A DNA stretch of 64,000 nt from Loktanella sp. 5RATIMAR09. Lineage in GTDB: Bacteria; Pseudomonadota; Alphaproteobacteria; Rhodobacterales; Rhodobacteraceae. The DNA lies in contig NZ_LJAL01000004.1 of assembly GCF_001419985.1 (NCBI RefSeq), positions 62,001-126,000 on the forward strand, given 5' to 3'. The notes beneath the pieces were generated by a model that did not search any database, was not told where the DNA came from, and saw only the letters and a list, made by a program, of their open reading frames with translations. Below, piece after piece: positions 25,937-33,610 of this stretch (position 1 is the stretch's first letter; each line of letters opens with the position of its first letter). Both the position numbers and the translations under genes were made by a program.

Positions 25937-26188
25937 ACCTTGTCGCGATGAACGCCCTTATGCATTCTGGGTCGCAAGACTATTTTTAGGAACGATTGCT
26001 TTGGCTGATTTGTTTGCGACCGGACGCATGGCCACGTGTTTTCTTGCGGGCGGCCGTGGCTGCTTGCGTGCTGCAAGCAGGCAGTCTCATCGAACCGGAT
26101 GGCAGATGCGGAGCTTTTCCGAAACACTCGTAAACCCATTGCATGCACCCTATCTGGAAGATGAATAAACCGGCGGAGTTAAGCGAAA

Positions 26189-26392
26189 ATGTTGCGATTG
26201 ATCTTCATTGTTGCCTTTGTGGCGGTGGTTGCGATTGCAATCACGGCACTAATAGGAACAATGGCGGCCGTCGCACGTCCGCGCGCTGATAAGGAAACTG
26301 ACAACATGCCCGCGAAATTCCGACGCGTCACCTATGCATTGCTGGTTGTTCTGCTGTTTGGGGTCACAACCGGTTGGCTGGGGGCGGGCTGA
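26189..26392 (+). CDS. Small two-span membrane protein, first gene of the XpaC-TelA cassette
   Basis: The 67-residue protein has two hydrophobic segments (about 3-27 and 47-65) and a charged middle (RPRADKETDNMPAKFRR). I do not recognise a named family. A CGGAG ribosome-binding site precedes the ATG. Its stop and the xpaC-like start share bases (TGATG at 26390-26394), so it is translationally coupled to the cassette. It could be a small subunit of the membrane complex, or a sensor. Confidence 0.8.
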   Translation: MLRLIFIVAFVAVVAIAITALIGTMAAVARPRADKETDNMPAKFRRVTYALLVVLLFGVTTGWLGAG

Positions 26393-27288
26393 TGGCGAAA
26401 CGTTTTGGTGGCAAATTCAGCCCCGACGGGCAGCAAGGCGCAGGCAAGCGCACGGATACACATCGCGCACCTGTGGCATATCGTGCCGACAGGCGGGTTA
26501 AACTGCTTTATGTGCCCGCCATTGTTCTGGCGGCGACCTCGCTGAATGACGGTCCGGTCACGCTGGTGACGGCGCTTGTCGGGGCGGCAGTTCTGACGCT
26601 CGCGGCGTGGCTCTTGCAAGAAGGGCTTGCGGCCGAAGCGGCCTACAATGCCCGCAAAGTGGCGCGTCGTCCGGCCATGCCACGCAAAATGCTCGCCACA
26701 GCACTGACAGGCGTGGGCGTGGCAATTGCGGCTTATACAGGTGAAAGCGGCGCGATTGGCGCCGTCCTCTACGGGATCGCTGCGGCTGGTTTGCATACTG
26801 CCACCTTCGGGATCGACCCGTTAACGGACAAGCGCATGGAAGGGATCGACAGCTTTCAGCAAGACCGTGTTGCCCGCGTCGTCGATCAGGCCGAGGCGCA
26901 TCTGGACGTCATGAAACGCCAGATCGAGACTGTGTCGGACCGCCGCCTGACCGAACGTGTCGAAGATTTTCAGGTGATCGCCCGCCGCATGATCCGCACC
27001 GTCGAGGAAGACCCGCGCGACCTGACCGGCGCGCGCAAATTTCTGGGCGTCTACCTGATGGGTGCGCGCGATGCGACGCTCAAATTTGTCGATCTTTACA
27101 ATCGCAACAAAGATGCTGGCGCGCGCGGCGCCTATGAGGCGCTGCTTGACGACCTTGAACAGAATTTTGCTGCACGCACCGACAAGATGATGCTCGATGA
27201 CCGCAGCGATATGGATATTGAAATTAATGTACTGCGTGACCGCCTCCAGCGCGAGGGCGTCAATTTGAAAACGAAAGGGAACGACTAA
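26392..27288 (+). CDS. XpaC-like (5-bromo-4-chloroindolyl phosphate hydrolysis) family protein
   Basis: This 298-residue protein has a basic N-terminal cytoplasmic tail, two pairs of hydrophobic helices (about 40-80 and 100-140) and a C-terminal helical domain with long amphipathic segments, matching the XpaC family. XpaC is paired with TelA/YaaN in Bacillus and with Ter stress systems more widely; the enzymatic name is historical and no catalytic activity is established. The start is MAKRFGGKFSPDG. It is TAATG-coupled to telA. Confidence 0.85.
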   Translation: MAKRFGGKFSPDGQQGAGKRTDTHRAPVAYRADRRVKLLYVPAIVLAATSLNDGPVTLVTALVGAAVLTLAAWLLQEGLAAEAAYNARKVARRPAMPRKMLATALTGVGVAIAAYTGESGAIGAVLYGIAAAGLHTATFGIDPLTDKRMEGIDSFQQDRVARVVDQAEAHLDVMKRQIETVSDRRLTERVEDFQVIARRMIRTVEEDPRDLTGARKFLGVYLMGARDATLKFVDLYNRNKDAGARGAYEALLDDLEQNFAARTDKMMLDDRSDMDIEINVLRDRLQREGVNLKTKGND

Positions 27289-28478
27289 TGTCTGAAACGA
27301 TCCGCAAGAAGGCCGAAGCGACGCTTGCCGAAGTTGAAAAGATTACAGCCGTGGTTCTGCCCGAACCCAAGAACGAATTGATCACGCTCGAGGCCGCAGA
27401 CGCGCCCACCAGCGCTGAAATCCAGAAACGCGTGGCCGAGATCAATATCACGGACACCAATTCCATCGTGTCTTTCGGCTCATCCGCGCAGGCCGAATTG
27501 CAGGTCATCAGCCAATCCATGCTGGCAGGTGTGCGCAACAAGGACGTGGGTCCAGCAGGTGACAGCCTGCGCAACATCGTGACCACGATCCGCGGCTTCT
27601 CAATCTCGGAACTTGATGTGCGCCGAGAGCGTAGTTGGTGGGAAAAGCTCTTGGGGCGTGCCGCACCAATGGCGAAATTCGCCGCCCGTTTTGAAGAAGT
27701 CCAAGGCCAGATCGACCACATCACTGATGACCTTCTCAAGCATGAGCATGTGCTTCTGAAAGATATCGAAAGCCTTGATGTGCTCTATGACAAGACGCTG
27801 CAATTCTATGACGAATTGGGGCTTTATATCGCTGCAGGCGAAGCAAAGATCGCTGATCTTGACGCCACAACGATCCCCGCCAAAGAGGCCGAGGTGCAAG
27901 CAGCCCCCGAAGAGCAGGCAGTGATGAAGGCGCAGGAATTGCGCGATATCCGTTCTGCCCGCGATGATCTGGAACGTCGGGTGCACGATCTGAAACTGAC
28001 GCGTCAGGTGACGATGCAATCTTTGCCATCCATCCGCTTGGTGCAGGAAAACGACAAGTCGCTGGTGACCAAGATCAACTCGACCTTGGTGAACACAGTG
28101 CCGCTGTGGGAAACGCAACTGGCGCAGGCGGTGACGATCCAGCGGTCCTCGGAAGCGGCCGAGGCCGTGCGCGATGCCAATGATCTGACCAACGAATTGC
28201 TGAAAGCCAACGCCGCGAACCTGCGTCAGGCCAACCGCACCATCCGCGAGGAAATGGAACGCGGTGTATTCGACATCAACGCGGTGAAAGAGGCGAATGC
28301 CAACCTGATCGCGACGATCAACGAAAGCCTCGAGATTGCCGACGAAGGCAAGCGCAAGCGCGCCGAGGCCGAGGTGGAATTGCAGAAGATGGAGCAGGAG
28401 TTGAAGGACACCCTTGCTTCTGCCAAGGCGCGCAAGACCGGCACGGGCGACACCATCGGCACAGCGACAGGCAGTTAA
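27288..28478 (+). CDS. TelA-family toxic anion resistance protein
   Basis: The 396-residue, almost entirely helical, charged protein of the TelA (KlaA/YaaN) family has coiled-coil-like stretches at about 150-230 and 290-380. TelA proteins were named for tellurite resistance on plasmid RK2, and homologues affect resistance to cell-envelope agents. It is cytoplasmic, presumably membrane-associated through XpaC. It shares a base with the xpaC stop and is followed after 6 bp by the DUF2927 lipoprotein gene. Confidence 0.92.
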   Translation: MSETIRKKAEATLAEVEKITAVVLPEPKNELITLEAADAPTSAEIQKRVAEINITDTNSIVSFGSSAQAELQVISQSMLAGVRNKDVGPAGDSLRNIVTTIRGFSISELDVRRERSWWEKLLGRAAPMAKFAARFEEVQGQIDHITDDLLKHEHVLLKDIESLDVLYDKTLQFYDELGLYIAAGEAKIADLDATTIPAKEAEVQAAPEEQAVMKAQELRDIRSARDDLERRVHDLKLTRQVTMQSLPSIRLVQENDKSLVTKINSTLVNTVPLWETQLAQAVTIQRSSEAAEAVRDANDLTNELLKANAANLRQANRTIREEMERGVFDINAVKEANANLIATINESLEIADEGKRKRAEAEVELQKMEQELKDTLASAKARKTGTGDTIGTATGS

Positions 28479-28484
28479 AGAAGC

Positions 28485-29450
28485 ATGATGATCGGGGGTA
28501 TCACACGGCGTGTTGCGATGCTCGTCCTTGCGACGGGTGTCATGGGGTGCCAGTTGATGACACCTCCGGTCACATCGCCGGCAGCCCCGCCAGTTGTGAC
28601 AGCCCCTGCGCCGGAACCAACCCCCGTTGTCATACCCCCCAGTCAGGCCAGCAGAGATCTGGCGGTCTATTACGGTCGTTTGCAGAACGACCTTCTGGCC
28701 CAGGGCCTGATGCGGGGCGATGGGGGCGGGCGGGACACGCCGTTTACAGATACGCAACTCGCGCGCAATTTCGTGCGCATCGCGCTGTTCAACGAATACC
28801 GCGATGACAGCGATTTTCAGACACCACAGGCCACGATTTCCAAATTGCGCCGCTGGACGACCCCGATCCGCATGTCGGTGGAATTCGGAGATACCGTCCC
28901 TCTTGCCCAGCGTGATACCGATATGGCCAGCGTCAGCGCCTATGCCGCGCGCCTGTCACGCGTAACCGGCGTGCCGATCGAGATTACAGACAGGAACCCC
29001 AATTTCCGCGTGCTGTTCTTGGGCGAGGACGACCGTCGCGCCTACGGCCCGCGCCTACGCGCGCTGATCCCTACAATTTCCGAGGCAACTGTCCGCACCT
29101 TCGTGAACCTGCCGCGCGACCAGCTTTGCGTCGTGATCGGCACTTTTGCGCCCGGCAAGTCCAACTATACCAAGGCCGTGGCCATGATCCGTGCCGAACA
29201 CCCCAGCCTGATGCGCAGCGCGTGCATCCACGAAGAGCTGGCCCAAGGCATGGGCCTTGCAAATGACAGCCCACAGGCGCGCCCCTCGATTTTTAATGAT
29301 GACGAAGAATTCGCGCTGCTGACAGCACATGACGAGCTTTTGCTGCGGATGCTCTACGACCCGCGCCTGCAAACCGGCATGGACCCTGCGACAGCCGCCC
29401 CACTTGCGCGCATGATTGCGCGTGAATACCTCGCACCTGGACAAAGCTGA
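28485..29450 (+). CDS. DUF2927 lipoprotein
   Basis: The 321-residue protein has a lipoprotein-type signal (MLVLATGVMGC, Cys near residue 22) and a Pro/Ala/Thr-rich tether. A globular DUF2927 domain then ends in CIHEELAQGMGLAND and SIFNDDEEFALLTAHDELLLRMLYDP. The HEEL-x-QGMGL pattern with downstream Asp/His resembles a metallopeptidase-like site, but this is only a visual likeness and no activity is known for the family. In this cassette it would be the periplasmic component facing the cytoplasmic TelA and SPFH proteins. Confidence 0.83.
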   Translation: MMIGGITRRVAMLVLATGVMGCQLMTPPVTSPAAPPVVTAPAPEPTPVVIPPSQASRDLAVYYGRLQNDLLAQGLMRGDGGGRDTPFTDTQLARNFVRIALFNEYRDDSDFQTPQATISKLRRWTTPIRMSVEFGDTVPLAQRDTDMASVSAYAARLSRVTGVPIEITDRNPNFRVLFLGEDDRRAYGPRLRALIPTISEATVRTFVNLPRDQLCVVIGTFAPGKSNYTKAVAMIRAEHPSLMRSACIHEELAQGMGLANDSPQARPSIFNDDEEFALLTAHDELLLRMLYDPRLQTGMDPATAAPLARMIAREYLAPGQS

Positions 29451-29494
29451 CCGGATGCGCCGCGTCCCAACCACCTAACGACGGAGACCATATC

Positions 29495-30598
29495 ATGGGC
29501 ATTTTCGATTTTCTGACCGGTGAATTCATCGACGTCATCCATTGGACCGACAACACCCGCGACACCATGGTCTGGCGGTTCGAGCGTGAAGGCCATGAGA
29601 TCAAATACGGCGCGAAACTGACAGTGCGCGAAGGTCAGGCGGCGGTCTTTGTCCATGAAGGGCAGCTGGCCGATGTGTTCACCCCCGGCCTTTACATGTT
29701 GGAAACCAACAACATGCCGATCATGACGACCCTGCAACATTGGGATCACGGTTTCAAAAGCCCCTTCAAGTCCGAGATTTACTACGTCAACACCACACGG
29801 TTCTCGAACCTCAAATGGGGCACGAAAAACCCGATCATGGTGCGTGATCCTGAATTCGGCCCCACCCGCCTGCGCGCCTTTGGTACATACACTGTCAAGG
29901 TCGCTGATCCTGCCGTGTTCCTGCGTGAAATCGTGGGCACCGATGGCGAGTTCACAATGGACGAGATCAGCTACCAGATCCGCAACATTATCGTGCAGGA
30001 ATTTTCCCGCGTGATCGCGCAATCGGGCATTCCCGTGCTTGATATGGCCGCCAATACCGCCGATCTGGGCAAGCTGATTGCCTCGGCCATTGATCCCACG
30101 ATGAAACAATACGGCCTGACGATCCCCGAACTCTACATCGAAAACATCAGCCTGCCTGCCGCTGTCGAAGAAGCGCTGGATAAGCGCACGTCGATGGGGC
30201 TGGCGGGTGATCTGGGCAAATTCACGCAATATTCCGCCGCCGAAGCCATGACATCCGCCGCCAGCAACCCTGCGGGGGGCGGCATGGCCGCAGGGCTTGG
30301 CGCGGGCATGGGCATGGCGATGGCAGGTCAAATGGCACAAGGCGGCCCTTGGGGGGCCAGCCCCGCTGCGGCACCGCCACCACCGCCGCCCGTTGAACAT
30401 GTCTGGCACATTGCGAACGCTGGCGAAGTGACCGGTCCTTTCTCAAAGGCCGCAATGGGCCGCATGGTGACTGATGGTAAACTCAGCCGCGACAGCATGG
30501 TTTGGACCCAAGGCCAAGACGGCTGGATGCAGGCGGGCGAAGTTATGGAACTGGCCCAGCTGTTCACCATTATGCCGCCACCACCGCCGGGGGCGTAA
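29495..30598 (+). CDS. SPFH-domain protein with C-terminal GYF_2 domain (YdjI-like)
   Basis: The 367-residue protein has a short N-terminal segment, an SPFH/band-7 domain at about 30-250 of the YdjI/virion-core-like type, and a Gly/Ala/Met-rich hinge with a Pro run. A GYF_2 domain follows at about 303-360 (VWHIANAGEVTGPFSKAAMGRMV then SMVWTQGQDGWMQAGEV). It has no membrane span and probably assembles as a ring on the membrane. GYF domains bind Pro-rich peptides, and the protein itself carries such a run. In Bacillus, YdjI is recruited by the zinc-ribbon protein YdjG, a parallel to the zinc-ribbon gene here. Confidence 0.88.
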   Translation: MGIFDFLTGEFIDVIHWTDNTRDTMVWRFEREGHEIKYGAKLTVREGQAAVFVHEGQLADVFTPGLYMLETNNMPIMTTLQHWDHGFKSPFKSEIYYVNTTRFSNLKWGTKNPIMVRDPEFGPTRLRAFGTYTVKVADPAVFLREIVGTDGEFTMDEISYQIRNIIVQEFSRVIAQSGIPVLDMAANTADLGKLIASAIDPTMKQYGLTIPELYIENISLPAAVEEALDKRTSMGLAGDLGKFTQYSAAEAMTSAASNPAGGGMAAGLGAGMGMAMAGQMAQGGPWGASPAAAPPPPPPVEHVWHIANAGEVTGPFSKAAMGRMVTDGKLSRDSMVWTQGQDGWMQAGEVMELAQLFTIMPPPPPGA

Positions 30599-30632
30599 GG
30601 CCATCACTGCGCTAGCCACCATAAAGGCCAAA

Positions 30633-31163
30633 CTGCCGCATCGGCGCGTCTACCTGAAGTGGATGCACTGGCTAATGGTGCCATTGTTCGTCTGGTTCGT
30701 GGTCGTGCAACCCATCGACGTACAGCGGATCGGCCCTGCTGCTGTGCAGTTTCATTCGGTGATGGGGCTGTTGTTTGTCAGCTTGGCCTTGTTCTGGACG
30801 GTGGATTATATGCGCAAAGGTCTGGCAAGCAGGCCCGGCCCAAAATTGCCGGGCAAGGCGCGCGCAGTGCACCAAATGCTGCACAAAGTATTGATCTGGG
30901 GGATCTTCTGCGTCGCCCTCACTGGCTTTGGTCTGGGGCTGACTTCGGCGGTACTGCTTTGGGCGGGTGGCATTGTGCCCATTGCGCCGCCCCTGAATAT
31001 GCCGCAAGCGAATGATTTCATTGGCAAGGTGCATGAGGTTCAGTTTTACACACTCGCGGTCATCGCAGGGTTTCACGTGCTCTTCCACCTCTGGCGCCAC
31101 TATGGATTGCGCGACAACGCGCTCCGGATCATGGCCCCCAAAGCGATACATCGGTTCCTATGA
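30633..31163 (+). CDS. Cytochrome b561-type membrane protein (start codon uncertain)
   Basis: This protein of about 176 residues has four hydrophobic spans and His residues placed as heme-b ligands: LKWMHWLMVP in helix 1, VQFHSVMG in helix 2 and IAGFHVLFHLWRHYG in the last helix. No ATG, GTG or TTG start lies upstream of the first helix. A CTG at 30633 has AAAGG 5 nt upstream and gives a plausible N-terminus. The first ATG (30663) would begin inside helix 1. It probably moves electrons within the membrane and is coupled by ATGA to a second similar gene. Confidence 0.75.
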   Translation: MPHRRVYLKWMHWLMVPLFVWFVVVQPIDVQRIGPAAVQFHSVMGLLFVSLALFWTVDYMRKGLASRPGPKLPGKARAVHQMLHKVLIWGIFCVALTGFGLGLTSAVLLWAGGIVPIAPPLNMPQANDFIGKVHEVQFYTLAVIAGFHVLFHLWRHYGLRDNALRIMAPKAIHRFL

Positions 31164-31582
31164 CACAGCGCAGGCTCACAATTATTCTGCATTGGAGCAC
31201 TTTGATGCTGGTGCTCGTCATGGTTAAAGGCGGCACGTCGGAACCTTGGGTCCGCTGGACCTTTGTGGTCGGCGGGGCCATCTGGCTGGGTATGACACTG
31301 ATCAAGGGGATGATGTGCAAACCGGGACCCAAGCTGCAAGGCCCGCTGCGCACCGCCTACCCGTGGATGCATCGCGGCATGTATGCGGTGCTGGCGGTGA
31401 CTGTGGCCCTGAACGCAGCTGCCCTGCTGGGGTGGATGCCGCATGATACGGGCTGGGTCGCGCTTCTCGTTTTACTCGGCGCGGGTGCGCTGCATGGGCT
31501 GTTCCACTTTTGGCGGCACAATGTGCTCTATGATGGTGCGCTGCGCGTGATGACGCCGCGCTTTATGCATAAGATACTCTAG
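31160..31582 (+). CDS. Second cytochrome b561-like membrane protein
   Basis: The 140-residue protein has four hydrophobic spans and is clearly related to its upstream neighbour. It shares the MCKPGPKLQGPLR loop (compare ASRPGPKLPGKAR) and the C-terminal HGLFHFWRHNVLYDGALRVMTP (compare HVLFHLWRHYGLRDNALRIMAP). Candidate heme ligands are in IILHWSTL, WMHRGMYA and the final HxxxH. The pair looks like a tandem duplication, perhaps forming a heterodimer. ATGA overlap at its start, and it ends one base before the next ATG. Confidence 0.8.
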   Translation: MTQRRLTIILHWSTLMLVLVMVKGGTSEPWVRWTFVVGGAIWLGMTLIKGMMCKPGPKLQGPLRTAYPWMHRGMYAVLAVTVALNAAALLGWMPHDTGWVALLVLLGAGALHGLFHFWRHNVLYDGALRVMTPRFMHKIL

Positions 31583-32686
31583 ATGGCTGACGGACAGGCA
31601 CCAGTAGACGAACACCGCTTCCCTTGCGAAAGCTGCGGGTCGGACCTGCGGTTTGATCCCGCCGACCATCAACTTAAATGCGATCATTGCGGCAATGTGC
31701 AAGCGATCGAAAGCGCGGGGCCTTGGGCGGGCGCGATTGTCGAGCTGGATTTCCAACGGGCCGTTCAAAAACGGCTGGATGCGGCGGATATTGAAGAAAC
31801 GCGTGTGAACACCTGCCCCAACTGCGGGGCGCAGACCGAATTTGACCCCGATATACACGCCGCTGAATGCCCGTTCTGTGCCACGCCTGTGGTCACTGAC
31901 ACAGGGATGCACCGGCATATCAAACCGCGTGGCTTGCTGCCTTTCGCGCTTGATGAGGGAGAAGCGCGCAAAGCCCTCATCGCATGGCTCGGCAGCCTTT
32001 GGTTTGCGCCAAATGGTCTGACGGATTATGCGCGAAAAGGGCGCAAGATGAACGGCATCTATGTCCCCTACTGGACCTTCGATGCCGACACCAAAAGCCA
32101 ATACACCGGCCAGCGCGGCACTCATTATTATGAAACCAAAACCGTGATGCGCGACGGCAAGCGCCGTCAGGTCCGTGTGCGCAAAACACGCTGGCGGCCT
32201 GCATCGGGGCGCGTGGCGCGGTTCTTTGATGATGTGTTGGTGCTTGCCTCCAAATCCCTGCCCAAGAAATACACCGACGGGTTAGAGCCTTGGGATCTCT
32301 CGGCGCTGGAACCCTACAACCCCGAATATCTGGCCGGTTTCCGTGCCGAAGGCTATCAGGTGGAACTGACCGACGGGTTCACCGAAGCCCGCGCCTTCAT
32401 GGACCGGATGATCCACCGCGATGTGAAATACGATATCGGCGGCGATGCCCAGCGTGTCAGCAGCGTGAACACAACCGTCAGTGATGTGACCTTCAAACAC
32501 ATCCTGCTTCCCGTCTGGCTGGCGGCGTATAAATACCGCGGGCAAACCTACCGTTTTGTCGTGAACGGGCGCACAGGGCGGGTACAGGGCGAACGCCCCT
32601 ATTCCGCATGGAAGATCGGTTTTGCTGTTGTCATAGGACTTATCCTTGCGCTTATCGCAGGATTTGTTATCGCTAACAGCCAGTAA
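31583..32686 (+). CDS. Zinc-ribbon membrane protein (YdjG-like; misnamed primosomal protein N')
   Basis: This 367-residue protein has two N-terminal zinc ribbons: CESCGSDLRFDPADHQLKCDHCG at about 15-37 and CPNCGAQTEFDPDIHAAECPFC at about 78-99. A beta-rich middle region and a single C-terminal membrane span at about 343-364 follow. Homologues are often labelled primosomal protein N' or helicase, but there is no helicase motif. Bacillus YdjG has the same build and works with an SPFH protein (YdjI) at stressed membranes. It directly follows the cytochrome gene and closes the cassette. Confidence 0.83.
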   Translation: MADGQAPVDEHRFPCESCGSDLRFDPADHQLKCDHCGNVQAIESAGPWAGAIVELDFQRAVQKRLDAADIEETRVNTCPNCGAQTEFDPDIHAAECPFCATPVVTDTGMHRHIKPRGLLPFALDEGEARKALIAWLGSLWFAPNGLTDYARKGRKMNGIYVPYWTFDADTKSQYTGQRGTHYYETKTVMRDGKRRQVRVRKTRWRPASGRVARFFDDVLVLASKSLPKKYTDGLEPWDLSALEPYNPEYLAGFRAEGYQVELTDGFTEARAFMDRMIHRDVKYDIGGDAQRVSSVNTTVSDVTFKHILLPVWLAAYKYRGQTYRFVVNGRTGRVQGERPYSAWKIGFAVVIGLILALIAGFVIANSQ

Positions 32687-32704
32687 AAAGAGGGAGCCTC
32701 CGTG

Positions 32705-33610
32705 ATGATCCTGTGCTGTGGAGAAGCGCTTATTGACATGCTGCCGCGTGAGACGGCGGAAGGCGAGAGCACCTTCTCCCCCCATGCGGGCGGTTCGGTC
32801 TTTAATACCGCAATTGCACTCGGGCGATTGGATGCACCTGTGCAGTTCTTCTCGGGGCTCTCGTCTGACCTCTTTGGCGATGTGCTGTGCTCCGGACTTG
32901 CCGCCTCAAAGGTTGATGCAAGCCCCGCCGCTGTATCAAGCCGCCCCACGACGCTGGCTTTCGTGAAGCTGACGGATGGCCATGCCACTTACGCATTTTA
33001 TGACGAAAACACCGCAGGGCGCATGTTGACCGAACCCGATCTGCCCGATGTGGCGGCGGATGCTTTGTTCTTTGGCGGGATCAGCCTTATGGTAGAGCCC
33101 TGTGGCGCCACTTATGAAGCACTGATGTTGCGCGAGGCTCCCACAAAACTCACCATGATTGACCCGAACATCCGCCCCTCATTCATTGCCGATGAGCCGC
33201 ACTATCGCGCGCGCCTGACCCGCATGATGGGCGCTGCCGACATCATCAAGACCTCGGACGAGGATCTGGCCTGGATCACGGGATCGGCTGACGCGGATGG
33301 TTTGCTGGAGCAAACAGGCGCGCAGGTCATCCTGCTGACCCGGGGCGGCGAAGGCGTGAGCATTGTGACCAAGAACGGGACATTCGAAGTACCCGCCGAG
33401 AAGGCAACAGTCGTCGACACCGTGGGTGCGGGCGATACATTCAGTGCAGGTTTTATGGCGCAGTTGCACAAAAGCGGCCACCTGACCAAAGCCGGCATCA
33501 AAGCCGCAGACCAAGACGATCTACGCGCGGCCGCCAGCTTTGGCGCCAAAGTCGCCGCCATCACCGTCAGCCGCGCGGGTGCCAATCCGCCTTGGGCGTC
33601 GGAACTGTGA
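32705..33610 (+). CDS. PfkB-family carbohydrate kinase (fructokinase-like)
   Basis: The protein is about 301 residues with the two ribokinase-family signatures: [16 protein letters not shown] near the N-terminus and [17 protein letters not shown] near residue 240, containing the catalytic Asp. It phosphorylates a sugar, and fructose is the most likely by similarity ([13 protein letters not shown] start). An ATG at 32705 is used; a GTG one codon earlier is equally well placed after GGGAG. It overlaps dtd by GTGA. Confidence 0.86.

Follow-up and report, generated by a model that had tools for sequence, protein, structure and literature searches.

In Bacillus subtilis, xpaC-yaaN forms one operon and pspA-ydjGHI another; both are listed under sigma-W, the first in the core and the second in the secondary part of the regulon (PMC3498285). 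YdjI was reported to require YdjG and YdjH for its membrane localisation and to recruit PspA to the membrane, and membrane fluidity falls when YdjI is lost (PMC8581546); YdjG was described with two zinc ribbons, a further (NTF2-like) domain and a transmembrane (TM) segment (PMC11237479). In Listeria, an XpaC/TelA-like operon was mildly upregulated (log2 ~0.6) with a PspC-type gene under bacteriocin, and a TelA-like mutant was cited as 4-fold more sensitive to nisin and 2-fold more sensitive to tellurite (PMC12791056). The locus analyzed here lies in a stretch of 64,000 nucleotides from Loktanella sp. 5RATIMAR09 (contig NZ_LJAL01000004.1, positions 62,001 to 126,000; the window), where eight open reading frames (ORFs), all on the + strand, fill positions 26189-32686 according to the ORF list and Pfam, as a first-pass annotation had described. 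The cassette is real and conserved: it consists of a five-gene core, XpaC-TelA-DUF2927-SPFH-zinc-ribbon, with optional parts, one of which is a swap slot. With about even confidence, the conserved, operon-like row was read as building an inner-membrane SPFH/TelA scaffold, whose predicted role is to guard the envelope against stress.

All loci were picked via the SPFH gene, and the conservation counts are thus conditioned on SPFH. The sample of the window's family (Rhodobacteraceae) comprised 149 genomes, each from another genus, and an SPFH match was obtained in 137 of them, a few being partial. Stretches of ~20 kb around SPFH were taken from 40 family genomes spread over the identity range, together with 12 more family loci and with 80 named loci, selected from 586 found as those closest in SPFH (nearest Loktanella sp. 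PT4BL, 98%). The 132 loci were reduced to 129 unique by SPFH DNA and to 120 complete loci (9 were dropped because too little sequence flanked SPFH), comprising 48 from the spread sample and 72 from the nearest-named sample. TM segments were called by a simple hydropathy scan.

The five-gene order was found in 111 of the 120 unique complete loci, and this recurrence indicates that the grouping is more than chance. All five core genes were present in 41/48 loci of the spread sample and 70/72 of the nearest-named sample. The remaining orders were SPFH-zinc-ribbon (4 loci), XpaC-TelA-SPFH-zinc-ribbon (2), TelA-DUF2927-SPFH-zinc-ribbon (2) and DUF2927-SPFH-zinc-ribbon (1). A Paracoccus denitrificans plasmid record (L278) and P. 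ferrooxidans (L241) carry the cassette with no detectable XpaC, as TelA-DUF2927-SPFH-zinc-ribbon. Counted gene by gene, XpaC was present in 113 loci, TelA in 115 and the zinc-ribbon gene in all 120, and the optional small membrane protein and b-type cytochrome in 47 and 28. The expectation that all eight genes are kept together was therefore borne out for the core only and did not hold for the full set. RluB and TadA were common neighbours, in 31/40 and 30/40 spread loci.

The first two core genes encode an XpaC-like protein (26392..27288, +; PF10112, Halogen_Hydrol/XpaC, Pfam 4.2e-26) with an N-terminal TM region and a TelA/YaaN-like protein (27288..28478, +; PF05816, Pfam 1.8e-106), for which an all-helical model and no TM segment by hydropathy were obtained. 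TelA is the single match in its genome and is 34.8% identical to B. subtilis YaaN across 94% of its length. As in the xpaC-yaaN operons of Bacillus and Listeria, XpaC is directly followed by TelA, and the same order of a PF10112 and a PF05816 gene occurs in a B. subtilis plasmid record. In that record csfB and yaaO are the neighbours, whereas the window pair leads into DUF2927-SPFH-zinc-ribbon. No solved relative of TelA was found by sequence. TelA as an ESCRT-III/PspA look-alike was considered and dropped, because the model was weak and the fold search unspecific.

The SPFH protein (29495..30598, +) is of the YdjI type and carries a Band_7_1 domain (Pfam 1.2e-100) and a C-terminal GYF_2 domain (9.6e-19; residues 304-353) that the first-pass annotation had not recorded, followed by a polyproline stretch. 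GYF domains bind polyproline. The prolines P361, P362, P363 and P365 were invariant (20/20), and a PPP run stood within the last 16 SPFH residues in 128/129 loci. No TM segment was called by the hydropathy scan; classical flotillins (FloA/FloT) have a TM or hairpin anchor of their own, and a hairpin might escape such a scan. Against solved structures, only the GYF part matched below E 0.001 (7z3c, 2.5e-4). GYF_2 was also found on SPFH proteins without TelA (Vibrio, Tsukamurella) and is therefore no marker of the fusion. The C-terminus differs elsewhere as well: in place of GYF_2, the Comamonas SPFH ends in a helix-turn-helix (HTH) and one SPFH of the class in a SHOCT-like part just under the cut-off (YdjI-type proteins L239:6591-7688 and L186:9208-10206).

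The last core gene (31583..32686, +) encodes a YdjG-type double zinc ribbon with one C-terminal TM anchor by hydropathy (345-363). At least four CxxC pairs were present in 127/128 homologues, the Pfam zinc-ribbon matches being sub-threshold only, and a PPP run stood ahead of the first CxxC in 23/128 (frame starts not fixed). The profile matched mostly generic zinc ribbons among solved structures (best E 0.0024). An alignment run against the protein database scored 7997 proteins, 6493 of them at E <= 0.001; the best 120 of the 6493 were all close relatives, with names like TFIIB-type zinc finger protein, and give no information on distant kin. The likeness to YdjG was measured on an Enterococcus protein encoded between SPFH and TPM genes (26% identity over approximately the full length, E 3e-43), not on YdjG, and the ribbons and TM segment match the layout described for YdjG.

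The cassette resembles B. subtilis pspA-ydjGHI in placing a Band_7_1 SPFH gene beside a double zinc ribbon with a C-terminal TM, and differs in the SPFH end (GYF_2 and polyproline, compared with a sub-threshold zinc ribbon in the Enterococcus SPFH) and in being joined to XpaC-TelA-DUF2927 and optional cytochromes. The first-pass view that two Bacillus pairs share one cassette was upheld by the TelA match to YaaN, whose gene adjoins xpaC, and by the zinc-ribbon match to the ydjGHI-like Enterococcus locus; that both pairs are tied to envelope stress agrees with the listing of both operons under sigma-W (PMC3498285). No description of an XpaC-TelA-SPFH composite was found in the literature searched (most subscription papers lay outside its coverage).

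Between TelA and SPFH lies the DUF2927 gene (28485..29450, +; PF11150, Pfam 1.1e-62), which belongs to the core of the family version and encodes a lipoprotein with a lipobox recognised by eye (Cys22). Its modelled fold is that of a matrixin. The HExxHxxGxxH zinc motif of matrixin metzincins is not present in the window protein; with the register fixed via an invariant glycine, E250, Q254 and N260 stand where matrixins have three zinc histidines (motif E250-E251-Q254-G257-N260), and these residues were kept in 30/30, 29/30 and 30/30 members, respectively. Compared with MMP-1, -7, -8 and -9, the fold is alike by prediction and the zinc triad is replaced by E/Q/N, so the protein is predicted to lack zinc-protease activity; on the model, a pseudo-protease role is likely. 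The matrixin link draws on the predicted fold and on two relatives with HExxH, and Pfam at a loose limit gave no peptidase link in 30 DUF2927 members. These two distant members (L277 and L274) are candidate active matrixin-like proteins. DUF2927 thereby gains a predicted fold, that of a matrixin with its zinc triad lost; the name was not found in the literature searched, within the same coverage. A second DUF2927 protein of the same genome (G000:C3:246203-246802, L246; 462 aa in the stretch translated) also has EExxQ and is flanked by ORFs that by eye resemble an AAA ATPase and a VWA/CoxE-type protein. In a divergent family member (L051:7333-9185), two consecutive DUF2927 matches occur in the cassette.

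The slot between the SPFH and zinc-ribbon genes is occupied in the window by two optional genes. Gene 6 (30600..31163, +) encodes a cytochrome b561-type protein of a 'long' class (PF01292, Ni_hydr_CYTB, 2.6e-10; 40.8 bits against a cut-off of 30.1), one of three PF01292 genes in the 3.7 Mb genome, and matched no relative among solved structures. Gene 7 (31160..31582, +) encodes a short cytochrome b561-like protein of 140 aa with four predicted TM helices. The first-pass annotation had called both heme-b-type: gene 6 was supported by Pfam, whereas gene 7 had no Pfam match and resembles slot cytochromes. Among prokaryotic b561 cytochromes, Escherichia coli CybB is a superoxide oxidase. Gene 6 is like prokaryotic cytochrome b561 in keeping the TM1 and TM4 histidine motifs; gene 7 differs in its short form without the TM2 histidine, and at most one heme would be expected. 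In the short class, the TM1 histidine was kept in 16/16 unique sequences, the TM2 histidine of the long class was absent, the TM4 pattern was found in 12/16 (of the four misses, two were truncated frames) and the TM3 histidine was lost in some.

A b-type cytochrome was found in 33/131 slots when duplicate loci were included (short 15, long 8, canonical b561 4, a second long class 3 and two-gene slots 3), and in 28/120 unique complete loci (9/48 spread, 19/72 nearest). The two-gene slots were long plus short (L073), short plus long (L058) and canonical plus long (L066), and the long-plus-short pair occurred, besides the window, in 2/131 slots only. When a cytochrome profile was run over the 2.44 Mb of the 120 loci, 31/31 matches fell inside the slot (31.6 kb). 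A FastTree tree was built with 132 leaves, among them the window and three duplicates. Parsimony gave 20 changes of cytochrome presence on it, whereas 300 shuffles averaged 30.3 changes and never gave fewer than 25, indicating that slot cytochromes are partly inherited and often gained or lost. Insertions were tolerated at other cassette junctions too. One slot repeatedly taking different b561-type cytochromes is a natural experiment on SPFH scaffolds meeting heme proteins, and this repeated use is the one observation that suggests a redox link of the cassette. The slots of L033, L057 and L070 hold a minus-strand ORF with a signal-peptide-like start, similar in sequence in all three by eye.

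The recurrence of b-type cytochromes exactly between the SPFH and zinc-ribbon genes would also suit a platform for the assembly or quality control of membrane proteins or respiratory complexes, in which SPFH would encircle cytochromes and other complexes of the membrane like a chaperone instead of responding to stress; band-7 proteins have been discussed as chaperone-like factors in the assembly of complexes (PMC11237479). This explanation is improbable, though a serious candidate, given that the cytochrome is absent from 92/120 slots and that the Bacillus counterparts are listed under an envelope-stress sigma factor (PMC3498285).

In the scaffold reading, the tail-anchored zinc-ribbon protein would tether the SPFH protein to the membrane, in the way that YdjG/YdjH tether YdjI, and the GYF_2 domain of the SPFH protein might bind the polyproline tails of adjacent protomers, or partners rich in proline, so as to cross-link the scaffold. 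XpaC in the membrane and TelA with its long helices may form a second layer docked onto it, and the DUF2927 lipoprotein, placed across the membrane from them, may serve as a non-catalytic sensor that binds peptide or wall. Where present, the b561-type slot cytochromes could feed the redox state of quinone or superoxide into the scaffold. PspA, encoded elsewhere in the genome, is a possible client, as in Bacillus. The strongest argument for a shared function is one of context, namely that two co-regulated Bacillus operons form one row here. A more ambitious version, which is rather unlikely, holds that Alphaproteobacteria fused two sigma-W modules of the Bacillus kind into one machine, in which XpaC-TelA is docked onto a GYF-polyproline-linked cage of SPFH and zinc-ribbon proteins, a dead matrix-metalloprotease fold senses the outside, and, in some lineages, interchangeable b-type cytochromes lodged between cage and anchor report the state of quinone or superoxide and so tune membrane repair to respiratory redox. 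The alternatives weighed here overlap with the scaffold reading and with each other, and the likelihoods given are not meant to sum to one.

The distribution outside the family was examined at two levels. Among 240 Alphaproteobacteria genomes, 22 matched the SPFH alignment, 3 of these within the family; the out-of-family matches were to the SPFH domain itself in 8 and only or mainly to the GYF part in 11. The 8 SPFH loci comprised 5 with XpaC-TelA-SPFH-zinc-ribbon and no DUF2927, 2 with SPFH-zinc-ribbon and 1 with SPFH alone. TelA was found in 24/299 genomes of the phylum, 14 of them family members. The SPFH-zinc-ribbon dyad with no adjoining TelA was found in Vibrio, Comamonas and Tsukamurella, where it is plasmid-borne, and in Enterococcus, where TPM accompanies it. 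These patterns suggest a layered history: to an old SPFH-zinc-ribbon pair, Alphaproteobacteria would have added XpaC-TelA, the window's family DUF2927, and the optional extras would form a further layer.

Several results weigh against the scaffold reading. No SPFH match was found in 12/149 family genomes, at least one core gene was missing in 9/120 loci, and no XpaC match was obtained at the cassette locus of Paracoccus denitrificans. Outside the family, 10 of the 11 TelA loci (from 10 genomes) were without SPFH, so the TelA-SPFH link is clade-bound; the single exception comes from another class, and there XpaC-TelA adjoins a GYF_2 protein whose Band_7_1 match is weak and sub-threshold. In contrast to pspA-ydjGHI, no PspA and no TPM/YdjH match was found among the eight proteins. 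The predicted TelA model is weak (pLDDT 75, pTM 0.55), and Foldseek returned no match for it at E <= 0.001, only a mix of coiled-coil, ClyA-type and BAR proteins. Concerning the slot, 92/120 were empty of cytochrome, so a redox input cannot be essential; other genes used it too, since of 46 gaps exceeding 250 bases 17 held no cytochrome; and because the profile was seeded with slot members, the slot enrichment is an upper estimate.

The same distribution bears on the explanation that XpaC-TelA-DUF2927 and SPFH-zinc-ribbon are two independent modules that share a promoter via a common stress regulon and form no joint complex. Each occurs alone elsewhere, and the Bacillus operons are separate under one sigma factor (PMC3498285); the order was nevertheless kept in 111/120 loci despite insertions at several junctions, and we consider independence unlikely, if a serious candidate. 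The conserved row puts TelA/XpaC together with a YdjI/YdjG-type SPFH module, so that the idea of a joint action becomes directly testable.

The region upstream of the core was analyzed next to that of relatives. The optional first gene (g1; 26189..26392, +) encodes a small membrane protein of 67 aa with two predicted TM helices and falls just below the DUF2973 cut-off (21.5 vs. 22.2 bits, Pfam). Its count of 47/120 came from a profile; a crude ORF search (38/110) was discarded, as it caught wrong ORFs including TerC pieces. A terC gene stood directly upstream of the cassette, on the same strand, in 29/140 loci (three of the 140 were duplicates), with TerC matching PF03741 at 1.8e-37 in L075. 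No terC match was obtained in the other 111/140 fetched stretches; there is no terC beside the window cassette, and no TerC match above the Pfam cut-off in the window's own genome. At 26102..26133 (+), a 32-base stretch aligns to the closing codons plus stop codon of the L075 terC with a score of 35 (best of 500 mononucleotide shuffles, 26) and may be a scar left by the 3' end of a terC gene since lost; that terC 3' end also lies upstream of g1 in a genome of the same genus (G472, L235; score 132). The scar was not seen in the nearest named relative L073 (14), nor clearly in L074 (17) or L086 (19). Loss of terC in the window lineage is possible on this alignment. A CCTATCTGG-like block ahead of g1 (~26148-26160 in the window) is shared with the close relatives L073, L075 and L076; it follows the terC stop, or the site where that stop would stand, and is a candidate promoter element. 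When 12 upstream sequences were scanned for RpoE-, RpoH-, EcfG- and SOS-like patterns, none was found in the window, and the RpoH-like matches were two, in L077 and L078, at differing places.

Another explanation is a tellurite, toxic-oxyanion or metal-stress operon, in which TelA-XpaC (and TerC in relatives) would handle oxyanion or metal damage and SPFH, zinc-ribbon and heme proteins are accessory. A TelA family member is shared with the Ter tellurium-resistance systems, terC lies directly upstream in the 29/140 loci, and a review counts Rhodobacter sphaeroides telA among the chromosomal tellurite determinants (PMC6955997). The window differs from Ter systems, however, in having no TerB/TerD-type domain among the eight proteins and no adjoining terC; terC was missing from 111/140 stretches and not above the cut-off in the own genome, and the tellurite effect in the Listeria mutant was the weaker one (2-fold vs. 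4-fold for nisin; PMC12791056). Such an operon is considered improbable, though a serious candidate.

Psp-like and Ter-like parts are often discussed alongside phage stress. An anti-phage defence island is nonetheless very hard to credit: PADLOC gave only two weak matches, at E 0.0081 (TelA, 41 residues) and 0.001 (zinc-ribbon region), and the RluB/TadA neighbourhood is shared and SPFH present in 137/149 family genomes, unlike defence islands. NCBIfam models matched the cassette proteins only far below their cut-offs.

At the junctions, the stops and starts overlap as TGATG between g1 and XpaC and as TAATG between XpaC and TelA, the TelA/DUF2927 and DUF2927/SPFH gaps are 6 and 44 bp, and an ATGA overlap (gene 6/gene 7) and TAGATG (gene 7/zinc-ribbon) follow. 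The gaps of 34-44 bp first given around SPFH need a correction: 44 bp is right, and 34 bp would fit a gene 6 start at CTG 30633. In-frame ATG, GTG and TTG are absent between 30477 and 30662, and the candidate starts are ATC 30603, ATA 30621, CTG 30633 or 30654, and ATG 30474 or 30663. The translated gene 6 frame of the close relative L073 is likewise without a methionine ahead of the same N-terminus. A conserved N-terminus with no ordinary start (30599-30663) implies that translation begins either at a rare codon (ATC, ATA or CTG) or within the SPFH gene.

Downstream, a pfkB sugar kinase gene (32702..33610, +; Pfam 3e-44) starts 15 bp past the zinc-ribbon stop, so that the transcript may run beyond 32686. 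It was found in 56/129 loci, and at <=100 bp from the zinc-ribbon ORF in 38/129; perhaps read through, it is probably outside the cassette function. The first-pass remark that the cassette lacks PspA was confirmed, the genome's one PspA-family match lying elsewhere, ~50 kb past the window end (G000:C4:176063-176737, L001). By eye, that pspA gene is followed by a 92-aa membrane-protein-like ORF and then by an acyltransferase-like ORF.

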